From Afipia sp. (GTDB lineage: Bacteria; Pseudomonadota; Alphaproteobacteria; Rhizobiales; Xanthobacteraceae): 64,000 nucleotides of DNA. Numbering within the stretch: position 1 is the stretch's first letter; every line of letters begins with the position of its first letter. The position numbers were made by a program, and so were the translations under genes. The notes beneath the pieces were generated by a model. The model was not told the origin of the DNA and did not search any database. It was given only the letters and a program-made list of their open reading frames with translations. The stretch covers positions 372,001 to 436,000 of the forward strand of contig JANQAK010000006.1 of the NCBI GenBank assembly GCA_024707075.1, written 5' to 3'. Below are positions 43,871 through 57,611 of the stretch, piece by piece.

Positions 43871-44000
43871 CCTCTCCCCGTTTACGGGGAGAGGTCGAAG
43901 CCTGAGCGTAGCGAAGGGTTCGGGTGAGGGGCGAAGCGCCGAACGATGACGAGATGCCCCTCACCCCAACCCTCTCCCCGCAAAAGCGGGGAGAGGGAGA
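43871..44000. repeat. Family-B palindrome pair (B3) immediately after livK
   Basis: A long-type copy (43871-43932, outer stem CCTCTCCCCGTTTACGGGGA) faces an inverted short-type copy (43955-44000). The pair begins five bases beyond the livK stop and separates livK from livF. Placement directly after a binding-protein gene recalls the REP element after E. coli malE. Confidence 0.8.
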
Positions 44001-46418: not shown

Positions 46419-47312
46419 TCAGATCCGCTCGATGTCTCTGGTGCCGAACAGGCCGTAAGGCTTGATCATGAGGATGATGATGAGGGCATAGAACGGCGCG
46501 ATCTCGAACAGGTTGCCCCAGTGCAGATACTCGCTGTCGACGAAGTGCGCGAGGTTCTCGAGCAGGCCGATGATGATGCCGCCGAGCACCGCGCCGCCGA
46601 CGCTGTCGAGGCCGCCGAGGATCGCGGCGGGAAACACCTTGATGCCATAGGCGGCGAGACCGGCCGACACGCCGTTGACCACGGCGACGACGACACCGGC
46701 CACCGCCGACACGGTGGCAGAAATCGCCCAGGCCATCGCAAAGACGCTCTTCACGGAGATGCCGAGCGACTGCGCCACCTGCTGGTTGAACGCGGTGGCG
46801 CGCATGGCGAGGCCGTACTTCGAGACTTTGAAGAACCACGCCATGCCACCCATCATTGCCACCGAGACCGCGAGGTTGAGGATATAGACGGTCTGCACCT
46901 GCAAACCAAAGATGTTGATGAGCTTGGTGTGGAAGATCTGCGGGAACGGCTGAAGGTTGACGCCGAACATCCATTTCATCAGCGCCGAGAACACCGTGGA
47001 CAGCGCGATCGTCACCATGATGACGGAAATGATCGGCTCGCCGATCATCGGGCGCAGGATCACGAGCTGAATTGCGATGCCGAAGACGAACATGAAGACC
47101 AGCGTGATCGGCATACCGATCCAGAACGGCACCTGATACTTGGTCAGCAGGAACCAGCACACCCACGCGCCGATCAGCAGCAGCTCGCCCTGCGCGAAGT
47201 TGACCACCTGCGTGGCCTTGTAGATCAGCACGAACGACATCGCGACAACGCCATAGAGCGTGCCGACGACGAGGCCGTTGATGAGGAGTTGGATGAGGAG
47301 TTGGGTGTTCAT
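46419..47312 (-). CDS. livH: Branched-chain amino acid-type ABC transporter permease (LivH)
   Basis: The 297-residue hydrophobic permease has the LivH signature VVNFAQGELLLIGAWVCWFL near residues 37-56 and GGLDSVGGAVLGGIIIGLLE near the C-terminus. It is cotranscribed with livM (2-base gap). Upstream it is separated from the acs gene of the same operon by a 463-base DUF559/repeat cassette, which begins 21 bases from this start codon. The upstream region therefore lies within the repeat, and readthrough from acs must cross it. Confidence 0.9.
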   Translation of the reverse strand: MNTQLLIQLLINGLVVGTLYGVVAMSFVLIYKATQVVNFAQGELLLIGAWVCWFLLTKYQVPFWIGMPITLVFMFVFGIAIQLVILRPMIGEPIISVIMVTIALSTVFSALMKWMFGVNLQPFPQIFHTKLINIFGLQVQTVYILNLAVSVAMMGGMAWFFKVSKYGLAMRATAFNQQVAQSLGISVKSVFAMAWAISATVSAVAGVVVAVVNGVSAGLAAYGIKVFPAAILGGLDSVGGAVLGGIIIGLLENLAHFVDSEYLHWGNLFEIAPFYALIIILMIKPYGLFGTRDIERI

Positions 47313-47332
47313 GTTTCCGCGCGAGGTGTTAA

Positions 47333-47386
47333 CCTCTCCCCGCCTGCGGGGAGAGGTCGGCGCGCGGAGCGCGCCGGGTGAGGGGC
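47333..47386. repeat. Family-B palindrome, long type, left copy (B4)
   Basis: The sequence is the outer stem CCTCTCCCCGCCTGCGGGGA-GAGG, then TCGG, the inner arm CGCGC-GGA-GCGCG, then CCGGGTGAGGGGC. The GTG start of the DUF559 gene (47378) lies in the last part. Confidence 0.85.
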
Positions 47387-47761
47387 ATACTTTCGGTGCG
47401 TGGTCCGGATGCCAGAACTGGTCGTGCGCGGCGGCTTCGCAAGGATGCGACGGGCGCAGAATTGCGCCTGTGGAACAGCATCCGCCGACGTAGTTTGCTC
47501 GGGTTCAAATTCGTCCGGCAAGAACCGATCGGCACTTACATCGTCGACGTTGTATGTCGCGAGCGACGTCTTGTTGTTGAAGTCGATGGCGGGCAGCACG
47601 AGGCGAATGTTCGGGATGCAGTCAGAGATCGATGGCTCGTGGGGGAGGGCTATCGGGTTCTTCGGTTCTGGAACAATGATGTTCTCGGCAATCTTCCCGG
47701 AGTGCTTGAAACGCTTGCTGCCGCGTTGAATGGCAGCCAAGCCCCTCACCCGGATCGCTGA
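47378..47761 (+). CDS. DUF559 (Vsr-like PD-(D/E)XK) endonuclease domain protein
   Basis: The 127-residue protein has the whole DUF559 domain. The N-terminal RARRLRKDATGAELRLWNSI is followed by FKFVRQEPIGTYIVDVVC with D57. The VVEVDGGQH core carries E68 and D70, and the LRFWNNDVL end follows. The family is related to very-short-patch-repair endonucleases, and most members are uncharacterised. The GTG start at 47378 and the last six codons (APHPDR and stop) are supplied by the bracketing palindromes. It is transcribed against the operon in which it sits. A role in spreading the palindromes is the main hypothesis; a restriction or repair role remains possible. Confidence 0.85.
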   Translation: MRGILSVRGPDARTGRARRLRKDATGAELRLWNSIRRRSLLGFKFVRQEPIGTYIVDVVCRERRLVVEVDGGQHEANVRDAVRDRWLVGEGYRVLRFWNNDVLGNLPGVLETLAAALNGSQAPHPDR

Positions 47762-47795
47762 CGCGATCCGACCTCTCCCCACAGGCGGGGAGAGG
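47741..47795. repeat. Family-B palindrome, long type, right copy (B5, inverted)
   Basis: Read on the minus strand it is CCTCTCCCCGCCTGTGGGGA-GAGG, TCGG, inner arm ATCGC-GTCA-GCGAT, then CCGGGTGAGGGGC. Outer parts match B4 almost exactly; the inner arm is different but equally palindromic. Confidence 0.85.
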
Positions 47796-47832
47796 TGAAG
47801 ACCACGATCGCCGATCGCTGCTGGGACCGTTC

Positions 47833-49764
47833 TCACTCCGCTGCCTCCGCCGTCCGGTTGCGAATTCCGAGGTCGACCACCGGCAGGGTGCCGCGGATGC
47901 GCTGGGTGGTGCCGTCCTGGAAGCGGATCACGGTGTCGATGTCGATGTCGGGTCTGCCGCCGTAGATTGCATTGATAATGTCGGCGTACTTCTCGTTGAT
48001 GACGGTGCGGCGGACTTTTCGCGTGCGCGTCAGTTCGCCGTCGTCGGCATCGAGCTCCTTGTAGAGCAGCAGAAATTTCGAGATACGCTGCGCCGGCGGC
48101 AGCGTGGCGTTGACGGCTTCGACTTCCTTGCGCAGCAGTTCGTAGGTTTCGGCCCGCGAAGACAGGTCGGTGTAGGTGGTGAAGGACAGCCGGTTCTTTT
48201 CCGCCCATTTTGAGACGATCGAGAAGCGGATGCAGAGCATGGCCGCGAGATAATCGCGGCCGTCGCCAAGCACGACGGCTTCGGCGACGTAGGGCGAGAA
48301 CTTCAGCTTGTTCTCGATATATTGCGGCGAGAAGCGGTCGCCGCGCGCGGTTTGCGCGAGGTCCTTGATGCGGTCGATCACCACAAGCTGCTTCGCCTTG
48401 TTGAAGTAGCCGGCGTCGCCGGAATGCATCCAGCCGTCACGGATGTCGGCGGCGGTGGCGGCCTCGTTCTTGTAGTAGCCGGAGAACATGTTGGGGTGGC
48501 GCACCACGATCTCACCGACGCCGTTGACGTCGGGATCGCGGATCTCGATCTCGATATTCTCCGCCATCGACACGCCGGTGGTGTCGGGATCGACCTCGTC
48601 CGGCTTGTGCAGGGTGAAGGCCCCCAGCGTTTCGGTCTGGCCGTACAGCGTGCGCAGCGGCACGCCCATGGCGCGGAAGAACTTGAAGGTGTCAGGGCCG
48701 AGCGCCGCGCCTCCGGTCGCCGCCGAGCGCAGGCGGGTGAAGCCGAGGCGGTCGCGCAATGCGCGGAACAGGATCGCGTCCGCCACCGCCGAATGCTCGC
48801 CCTTGTCGAGCGCGGCAAGGCCGGCCTTCATGCCGACATCGTAAAGCCGCTGCTTCAGCGGCGAAGCGTCCATCACGCGGGCGCGGACATCGGCCGCGAT
48901 GGCTTCCCAGATGCGCGGCGCGAACAGCACGAAGGTCGGCGCGATTTCGCGGAAGTCGTTCATCATGGTGTCCGGCTCTTCGACGAAGTTGACCTTCATC
49001 CGCGAGAGCAGACCTTTTCCGAGCGCGTAGACCTGTTCCATGATCCAGGGCAGCGGCAGCACGGACACGTATTCGTCCTCCGGTCCCTTGGGATCGAAGG
49101 CGAGATAGCTCGCGCAATGGCGCAGCATCAGGCCCGGCTTGAGCATGGCGAGCTTGGGATTCGACGTGGTGCCCGACGTGGTGCAGAGGATGGCGACGTC
49201 GTCGCCCTTGGTGGCGTCCACCATCCGATCGTAAAGCTCCGGTTCGCGCACGGCGCGGGCGCGTCCCTTTTCCGCCAGCGTCGCCGCGTCGATCAGGCGC
49301 GGATCGTCGTATTTGCGCATGCCGCGCGGATCGGAATAGACGATGTGCTTGAGATGCGGCGCGCGGTCGCCGAGTTCGAGCAGCTTGTCGACCTGCTCTT
49401 CGTCCTCGGCGAAGACGATTTTGGTCTCGCCGTAGGTCAGGAGATACAGAACTTCCTCGGGCAGCGACTCGCGATACATGCCGAGCGACAGCCCGCCGAT
49501 GGCGTGCGCCGCGATTTCGGCCGCGACCCAGTCCGGCCGGTTGTCGCCGATGATGCCGACCACGTCGCCGCGCGTGATGCCGAGTTCGACCATGCCCAGC
49601 GTGAAATCGCGCACGCGGGTCTGGTAGTCGTTCCAGGTGAAGACGCGCCAGAGCCCGAGATCCTTCTCGCGCAGCGCGATCTCGCTGCCGTGCTCTTTGG
49701 CATTCAGACGCAGCATCTTCGGATAGGTGTCGGCCTGCGCAACGCGCCCTGCGTAATCCATCAT
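47833..49764 (-). CDS. Long-chain-type acyl-CoA synthetase (AMP-forming)
   Basis: The 643-residue ANL ligase has its P-loop as TTSGTTSNPK (195-204), then YGQTETLGAFTLHKP, DGWMHSGDAGYFNKA and the hinge VIDRIKDLAQTARGDRFSPQ. The substitution of the usual YTSGTTG tyrosine and the PK-L continuation are seen in this subgroup, which is often found beside liv genes. It starts in the four-base overlap ATGA with the livG stop, so translation is coupled. It likely activates the acid imported by the second transporter. Downstream, the operon is interrupted by the DUF559 cassette. Confidence 0.9.
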   Translation of the reverse strand: MMDYAGRVAQADTYPKMLRLNAKEHGSEIALREKDLGLWRVFTWNDYQTRVRDFTLGMVELGITRGDVVGIIGDNRPDWVAAEIAAHAIGGLSLGMYRESLPEEVLYLLTYGETKIVFAEDEEQVDKLLELGDRAPHLKHIVYSDPRGMRKYDDPRLIDAATLAEKGRARAVREPELYDRMVDATKGDDVAILCTTSGTTSNPKLAMLKPGLMLRHCASYLAFDPKGPEDEYVSVLPLPWIMEQVYALGKGLLSRMKVNFVEEPDTMMNDFREIAPTFVLFAPRIWEAIAADVRARVMDASPLKQRLYDVGMKAGLAALDKGEHSAVADAILFRALRDRLGFTRLRSAATGGAALGPDTFKFFRAMGVPLRTLYGQTETLGAFTLHKPDEVDPDTTGVSMAENIEIEIRDPDVNGVGEIVVRHPNMFSGYYKNEAATAADIRDGWMHSGDAGYFNKAKQLVVIDRIKDLAQTARGDRFSPQYIENKLKFSPYVAEAVVLGDGRDYLAAMLCIRFSIVSKWAEKNRLSFTTYTDLSSRAETYELLRKEVEAVNATLPPAQRISKFLLLYKELDADDGELTRTRKVRRTVINEKYADIINAIYGGRPDIDIDTVIRFQDGTTQRIRGTLPVVDLGIRNRTAEAAE

Positions 49765-51530: not shown

Positions 51531-51572
51531 CCCTCGCCCCGCTCTTGCGGGGAGAGGGTTGGGGTGAGGGGC
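51531..51572. repeat. Family-B palindrome, short type, solo copy (B6)
   Basis: The sequence CCCTCGCCCCGCTCTTGCGGG-GAGAGGG-TTGGGGTGAGGGGC (42 bases) has no variable inner arm. It begins three bases after the Crp-family regulator stop and could act as its terminator. Confidence 0.75.
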
Positions 51573-53611: not shown

Positions 53612-53731
53612 TCCCTCGCCCCGCTCTTGCGGGGAGAGGGTTAGGGTGAGGGGCTTCTTTACCGAAGTTGCCCCTCACCCGGAGACTTCGCCTCGCTCAG
53701 TCTCCGACCTCTCCCCGTAAACGGGGAGAGG
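53612..53731. repeat. Family-B palindrome pair (B7)
   Basis: A short-type copy (53612-53654) faces an inverted long-type copy (53670-53731) with inner arms AGACT/AGTCT. The pair lies between the SDR gene and the stop of the convergent livF. Confidence 0.8.
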
Positions 53732-57490: not shown

Positions 57491-57611
57491 CCTCTCCCCG
57501 CGTGCGGGGAGAGGTCGGATTGCGAAGCAATCCGGGTGAGGGGCGTTATATCAAGTCAGATAAAGTGGCCCCTCATCCCGACCCTCTCCCCGCAAGAGCG
57601 GGGCGAGGGGG
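57491..57611. repeat. Family-B palindrome pair (B8) immediately after livK
   Basis: A long-type copy (57491-57544, inner arm ATTGC-GAA-GCAAT) faces an inverted short-type copy (57568-57611). It starts 19 bases past the livK stop, matching the placement of B3 after the other livK. Confidence 0.8.

Follow-up and report, generated by a model that had tools for sequence, protein, structure and literature searches.

The stretch of DNA analysed here, referred to hereafter as the window, comprises 64 kb of an Afipia sp. genome. Between livH and an AMP-binding ligase gene ('acs'), it carries a DUF559 nuclease gene enclosed by two convergent G/C-rich ends. The gene is on the forward strand and both neighbours are on the reverse strand, as an initial annotation made from the letters alone had stated. 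The features of the junction are as follows.

46419-47312, reverse strand: livH
47322-47806, gene on the forward strand: whole unit, DUF559 gene and two convergent G/C-rich ends
47322..47386, forward strand: left end of the unit, an inverted repeat of the right end; the inverted likeness runs about 10 nt beyond the palindrome, outward
47332..47357: left palindrome (arm1 47332-47343, loop CT, arm2 47346-47357)
47358..47376: second hairpin of the left end, CGGCGCGC-GGA-GCGCGCCG
47376..47385, forward strand: left arm3, GGGTGAGGGG, mirror of arm2 save one A to T; third strand in a triplex reading
47396..47761, forward strand: DUF559 nuclease gene; homology puts the start at GTG 47396 (the longest ORF begins at GTG 47378)
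47741..47806, reverse strand: right end of the unit
47742..47751, reverse strand: right arm3 (CCCCTCACCC on the forward strand)
47751..47770: second hairpin of the right end, CGGATCGC-TGAC-GCGATCCG, with the stop codon in its loop
47771..47796: right palindrome
47833-49764, reverse strand: AMP-binding ligase gene 'acs'

The two palindrome cores (ACCTCTCCCC..GGGGAGAGGT), at 47333-47356 and 47772-47795, face each other. Going inwards, each end is made up of arm1, loop, arm2, a second hairpin whose sequence differs between the ends, and arm3 (GGGTGAGGGG). The inverted repeats of the unit extend over 45 nt at 87% identity and 19 nt at 89%, in agreement with the earlier reading that the palindromes match over their outer 40 or so bases. 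The enclosed ORF is a member of DUF559 (PF04480; E 4.6e-37, 126.7 bits against a cut-off of 20.6), a family that we take to be the one named COG2852, confirming that a nuclease gene is bracketed by inverted palindromes. The gene had also been said to start and to end inside them. Its stop codon (TGA 47759-47761) does fall inside the right end, where it occupies the loop of the second hairpin, whereas translation probably starts outside the left end, about 10 nt beyond it, at GTG 47396, because this codon lines up by eye with the ATG of the genes at the same junction in three other genera (G097, G041 and G024). No Rfam family matched at gathering threshold in the 64-kb window.

The core pattern CCTCTCCCC..GGGGAGAGG occurs six times in the window and was absent from 100 shuffles; genome-wide there are 53 sites, as compared with none for the reversed control. 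The claim that the palindrome also occurs in the window without a nuclease was borne out by three convergent pairs and one single copy.

43871..43996: gene-less convergent palindrome doublet (43871/43971)
51531..51557: single related palindrome, CCCTCGCCCC...GGGGAGAGG
53613..53731: gene-less convergent palindrome doublet (53613/53708), with T changed to G in one arm
57491..57608: gene-less convergent palindrome doublet (57491/57582)

Six DUF559 matches were found in the same genome, five of which lie between inverted G/C-rich palindromes that differ in sequence from one pair to the next. The sixth (L006) is low-scoring, lies in a frame of 502 aa and is not bracketed. The DUF559 match there (L006:307-1815) forms the C-terminal part of the frame, the N-terminal part of which presumably belongs to a SPOUT-type RNA methyltransferase. 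One DUF559 copy of this genome (L182:6001-6312) has an in-frame stop and retains both ends.

Bracketing was scored by local alignment of the 250 bp upstream of a gene with the reverse complement of the 250 bp downstream, using a fixed threshold of 40. The family set consisted of the genome of the window and 12 relatives picked for their many DUF559 matches (5 to 10 each), a biased sampling. After removal of six rows near contig ends or in fragments, and merging of three row pairs, the 86 matches in the relatives gave 77 loci; with the six of the own genome this made 83, of which 82 could be scored (L133 lies at a contig edge). Bracketing was seen in 57 of the 63 matches of at least 100 bits, in three of the four of 74-100 bits and in none of the 15 below 74 bits, most of which lie in frames of about 380-510 aa. 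Controls in the same loci scored in 3/4689 sliding windows and in 3/563 other ORFs (3/184 for small ORFs).

A named set was obtained by scanning one genome per species and keeping the 80 best matches to a profile; because bracketed members made up most of the 16 DUF559 proteins behind this profile, the set leans towards the bracketed subfamily. Two loci at contig edges (L289 and L314) and one with a false score due to a run of N (L244) were left out. Of the remaining 77 among these best matches, 61 were bracketed, as compared with 0/699 control windows. The bracketed loci came from records titled Alpha-, Gamma- and Deltaproteobacteria, Gallionella, Desulfobacterales, Chloroflexi, Dehalococcoidia, Binatia and Gastranaerophilales, with an Aminicenantes-titled record exactly at the threshold of 40; records titled Nitrospirae (30), Omnitrophota (31) and Dadabacteria (21) fell below it. 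Many of these records are metagenome assemblies, so that their taxon labels carry some risk. The initial annotation had proposed comparing bracketing of DUF559 genes with chance: it was far above chance in the gene-rich genomes of the family and in the named set, and in a phylum-wide draw it was again above control (12 of 29 scored top hits, control 1/59), although weaker than in the family. The link between DUF559 and the repeats is not universal, as 6/63 family genes, 16/77 named loci and 17/29 top phylum hits were unbracketed by our criterion.

YcjD-like proteins were present in 43 of 72,556 plasmid records. Among the eight of these 43 that were examined, bracketing was found on plasmids of Deinococcus proteolyticus (97), Deinococcus NW-56 (41), Pseudanabaena (126) and Azospirillum lipoferum (51); those of Synechocystis B12 (15), S. 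parapaucimobilis (19) and two Picosynechococcus (29 and 34) were under the threshold. The ends on the Pseudanabaena plasmid (L366) consist of pure C and G runs (CCCCCCAGAATTGGGGGGCTAGGGGGG), following the three-arm plan in other letters. A tblastn search with the protein of the window gave no match in 50,697 phage records.

A palindrome was obtained under the rule used for 239 of 290 ends (145 loci). In these, a mirror gave the better fit of arm3 to arm2 in 115 ends and a direct repeat in 16, the two fitting equally well in 108; the idea that arm3 is a simple direct repeat of arm2 was rejected on this count. The full purine-motif triplex code was followed by 132 of the 239 ends as mirror and by 61 as direct repeat, as compared with 23 of 4780 shuffles. 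Where its orientation was clear, arm3 pointed inwards in 104 family ends and outwards in four; the corresponding figures for the named set were 87 and 18. Arm2 and arm3 were separated by at least 11 nt in 95 of the 162 ends with a clear arm3, and 55 of these 95 inserts contained a stem of at least five pairs (39 different stems; 5.7% in chimeric and 4.3% in shuffled controls). Across elements the pairing of this second hairpin is often preserved while its sequence changes.

The arm1-loop-arm2-spacer-arm3 plan is that of the BoxC/PIT/TM-ECO triplex motif. The available text of Holder et al. 2015 (PMC4666352) describes 23 E. coli copies of it, such as CCCTCTCCC-loop-GGGAGAGGG-TTA-GGGTGAGGGG, and states that sequences of this motif form a stable triplex in vitro; H. 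influenzae and Synechocystis are named there as the species from which PIT elements were first reported. The DUF559 unit ends often obey the same code, arm3 mirroring arm2 as in a putative triplex. They differ in that many carry a hairpin between arms 2 and 3, and in that they are tied to DUF559, whereas the E. coli motif was described without a nearby mobility gene, transposase or integrase remnants never having been found around the repeats according to the same text.

In E. coli K-12, the fabI-ycjD gap contains Holder copy no. 9, just downstream of ycjD, which is annotated as DUF559. The K-12 ycjD gene terminates in CACCCTCTCCCTGA, within a degenerate further copy of the motif, and in strain GN25 the motif at the end of ycjD is retained with its arm3. 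Downstream of E. coli ycjD (L229:5000-5900) the last codons of the gene recur in degenerate form, with a further triplex motif behind them. No matching left end was found upstream of ycjD (score 18), which is therefore not bracketed. The gene is present in 3365 of 5426 E. coli genomes. A clean empty site was sought in three ycjD-less strains and discounted, other genes following sapF in each. The numbers of motif places were similar in strains with and without ycjD in the 30 rows listed, a comparison not designed as a test.

Nuclease and ends go together. In genomes with at least three units, the best match of a left end was the right end of its own unit in 49 of 65 cases (two ties; 12.0 expected). 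Similarity between nucleases rose with similarity between their ends (Spearman 0.279 for 59 units and 1671 pairs with non-homologous flanks), a value reached in none of 1000 permutations, the highest of which gave 0.22. For 20 of the 59 units the closest nuclease at a different site had the same arm2 core (4.0 expected). A kind of repeat with a TGGAG loop was found in all eight genomes that have a nuclease with such ends and in none of five without; in two of the eight (G069 and G113) there were no copies beyond those expected from the unit's own ends. The palindrome family of the window (family B) is present in 104 of 119 family genomes. Its median number was 17 in the 93 genomes with a short-class DUF559 and 1.5 in the 26 without (P = 6.8e-6 without a correction for phylogeny), the short class being defined by a best E below 1e-25, a cut set after the distribution of matches was known. 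Nine of the 26 nevertheless held at least five palindromes.

A RAYT was considered as the driver of these repeats and rejected. In the genome of the window the Y1 transposase domain of RAYTs matched only in broken frames (C5:178906-179265, possibly a decayed RAYT-like gene). Among the 119 family genomes, 29 had a Y1 match over the cut-off and 85 had none at E 0.001.

In an alignment of 64 proteins 13 columns are invariant; they include E21, D50, E61, D63 and H67 (numbering starts at 47399). An AlphaFold2 model of the window's protein (mean pLDDT 85) was used for a fold search, which returned 3hrl, a relative by sequence (E 1.6e-7 by fold, 1.8e-36 by sequence), and, as second entry, the catalytic domain of the Vsr-like homing endonuclease I-Bth0305I (3r3p, E 2.1e-4). 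The latter was also matched by sequence (E 0.017), its PDB title being mobile intron protein; the gene of the window differs in being free-standing and repeat-bracketed. Further sequence matches in the PDB, at E 0.2 or worse, were ignored. The Vsr mismatch endonuclease is alike in fold (1vsr, E 0.012; TM-score 0.55 by query length), yet the protein scores 13.8 bits against a curated cut-off of 97.85 for TIGR00632, and its gene lies in a repeat unit. Pfam assigned to the gene DUF559 and a sub-threshold REase_MTES_1575, and nothing else. Membership of a defence system was not supported, the PADLOC match being weak (DpdF, E 0.0015, 14.3 bits).

The clearest case of movement is a pair of units in a single genome (G066), where a unit is present at two unrelated places. 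The two are 93.6% identical over 455 bp, and no other alignment above 150 bits was found in the 1.5 kb on either side. Of 20 stretches chosen in this genome, 17 held 23 copies of the repeat by the pattern used and three were without the motif; 19 of the 23 copies resembled the unit end on the 3' side of the nuclease gene more than the one on its 5' side, and all six repeat pairs were convergent. Convergence was also seen, by eye, in the pairs under 250 bp of three further genomes (7/7 in G022, 5/5 in G043 and 1/1 in G048). On plasmids of two Deinococcus species (L364 and L365), a bracketed DUF559 gene occupies two different hpa operon junctions; where NW-56 has the insertion, the D. proteolyticus genes are annotated as overlapping by 4 bp. 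No general target-site duplication was detected among the 74 elements whose ends could be compared. At offset 2 and again at offset 3, 11 of the 74 showed a direct likeness of dinucleotides (5.1 and 3.6 expected; above all 200 shuffles), far too few for a general duplication. In five loci (L187, L192, L198, L131 and L139) a further copy of the left end lies behind the right end, giving short arrays.

An empty acs-livH junction in related strains, which the initial annotation had proposed looking for, was found. Of 28 genomes of the same genus that were searched, 18 have an orthologous livH (87-96% identity), and none of the 18 carries the gene at acs-livH; in nine, acs and livH overlap by ATGA, and the rest have no gap, a short gap or other palindromes. 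One such palindrome family (GTCATTGCCGGGCTTGACCCGGCAATCC and variants), often paired, occurs in the acs-livH gap of L052, L054, L057, L062, L070, L183, L185, L186 and L188. By eye it resembles the CGTC REPs of Di Nocera 2013 (PMC3733652), which, in the part of that paper available, are apparently without a dedicated transposase.

Related units nonetheless occupy the same junction in three other genera (G097, G041 and G024), which speaks against a simple recent insertion; the unit may have come to acs-livH by descent with losses, by transfer of the region or by repeated insertion at a hotspot. In congeners of G097 and G024, the junction as read held gene-less doublets or nothing. The alignment of the window with G097 spans the unit and both neighbours. 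The second hairpin of the right end is identical in the window, G097 and G041, but this does not prove descent at acs-livH because it is also found in units at other sites (L110, L126 and L163). These routes were not told apart by a nuclease tree (64 rows, 108 columns; proteins with an in-frame stop left out), in which the four acs-livH nucleases form no supported set of their own. The support of 99/97 for the acs-livH group reflects only its separation from the group at a second shared junction, which we take to be pheS-pheT, and the nearest row by path to the nuclease of the window is at another site (L113). The six units at this second junction form, with L181, a set supported at 99/97. The presence of some units at a single site across genera fits residence as well as it fits movement.

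The initial annotation had likened this layout to that of REP sequences and their RAYT, with a Vsr-like nuclease in its place, and the likeness holds for the matching of ends, the convergent doublets and the co-variation. Like the RAYT/REPIN systems, as set out in the available parts of PMC3116915 and PMC3733652, DUF559 units have a resident gene beside inverted palindromes, dispersed inverted doublets and several kinds of repeat per genome, each tied to its own enzyme. Unlike them, they encode a Vsr-like PD-(D/E)XK nuclease rather than a Y1/HUH transposase, carry a third G-rich arm on their ends and reach up to 10 DUF559 matches per genome. A GTAG tag at the foot of the hairpin was not seen in base counts at 14 positions outside arm1 in 74 elements. 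By layout the unit is therefore a known arrangement, an enzyme and its REPs; in enzyme class and in its three-armed ends it differs from RAYT. No report of a link between DUF559 and palindromes of this kind was found in the literature searched, most subscription journals and preprints lying outside it. In the part of PMC12308824 available, Legionella recombination hotspots are described as repeated segments with a transposase and DUF559.

We think it probable, with some reserve, that the unit belongs to a widespread mobile-repeat system in which the DUF559 nuclease and the bracketing palindrome/triplex repeats belong together as RAYT does with REP or REPIN. From the association, the matching of ends, the co-variation and the one intragenomic move, we infer that the nuclease mobilises the palindromes. 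It would recognise the folded end of its own kind, as a hairpin or intrastrand triplex, in single-stranded DNA such as that of a replication fork, and would nick there. An end or a doublet, and in rare cases the entire unit, might then be copied by repair or template switching into a different intergenic gap. Gene-less doublets would be the non-autonomous forms.

The main rival is homing, in which a free-standing DUF559 endonuclease cuts gene-less repeats, either single palindromes or doublets, and recombination between matching palindromes then introduces its gene; the spread of the repeats would be due to something else. The rank of I-Bth0305I in the fold search is in keeping with such an activity, and homing explains the shared sites well: some genera have a DUF559 unit at acs-livH, and others have gene-less doublets there, of various kinds and with the same convergent layout, as though the gene had gone into a doublet. 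It leaves unexplained, however, the spread of the repeats and their co-variation with the nuclease; several relatives lack any repeat at acs-livH, and the stretch shared by the G066 pair is the entire 455 bp, including both ends. We regard homing as unlikely to be the explanation, while noting that it and a RAYT/REPIN-like module could both operate.

It is also conceivable that repeat-rich intergenic gaps are merely tolerant and that the nuclease is a host repair gene which landed there. The acs-livH gap does collect several unrelated repeat families across relatives, and a Caulobacter DUF559 protein is proposed to be a mismatch-repair endonuclease in the available part of PMC12907096. Tolerance of the gaps does not account for the rarity of bracketing among other ORFs of the same loci and its absence among low-scoring DUF559 matches, nor for the two ends of a unit being mostly each other's best match, and we consider such hitch-hiking quite improbable. 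Hardly credible, in our opinion, is the proposal that the ends are regulatory hairpins of the nuclease gene, serving as terminator or in autoregulation rather than as mobile ends. The stop codon in a hairpin loop of the window's unit would suit it, as would the frequent retention of pairing in the inserts between arm2 and arm3; against it, similar ends occur in gene-less doublets, and the E. coli motif had shown no promoter or terminator activity in earlier work, according to the available text of PMC4666352.

Returning to the reading in which nuclease and repeats form one mobile system, we put forward a broader and more tentative proposal, which we hold with less assurance: DUF559/YcjD proteins may be the missing propagation enzymes of BoxC/PIT triplex repeats across bacteria. 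They would define a class of mobile DNA with a PD-(D/E)XK nuclease as its only protein and with ends recognised in a folded, three-stranded form, a class that would have arisen independently of RAYT/REPIN. Triplex repeats were described decades ago and the means of their spread was not found; DUF559 would supply a candidate enzyme. The link gives the DUF559 family a testable function, and it would be an independent case, beside RAYT/REPIN, of an enzyme that lives with short palindromes and spreads them.
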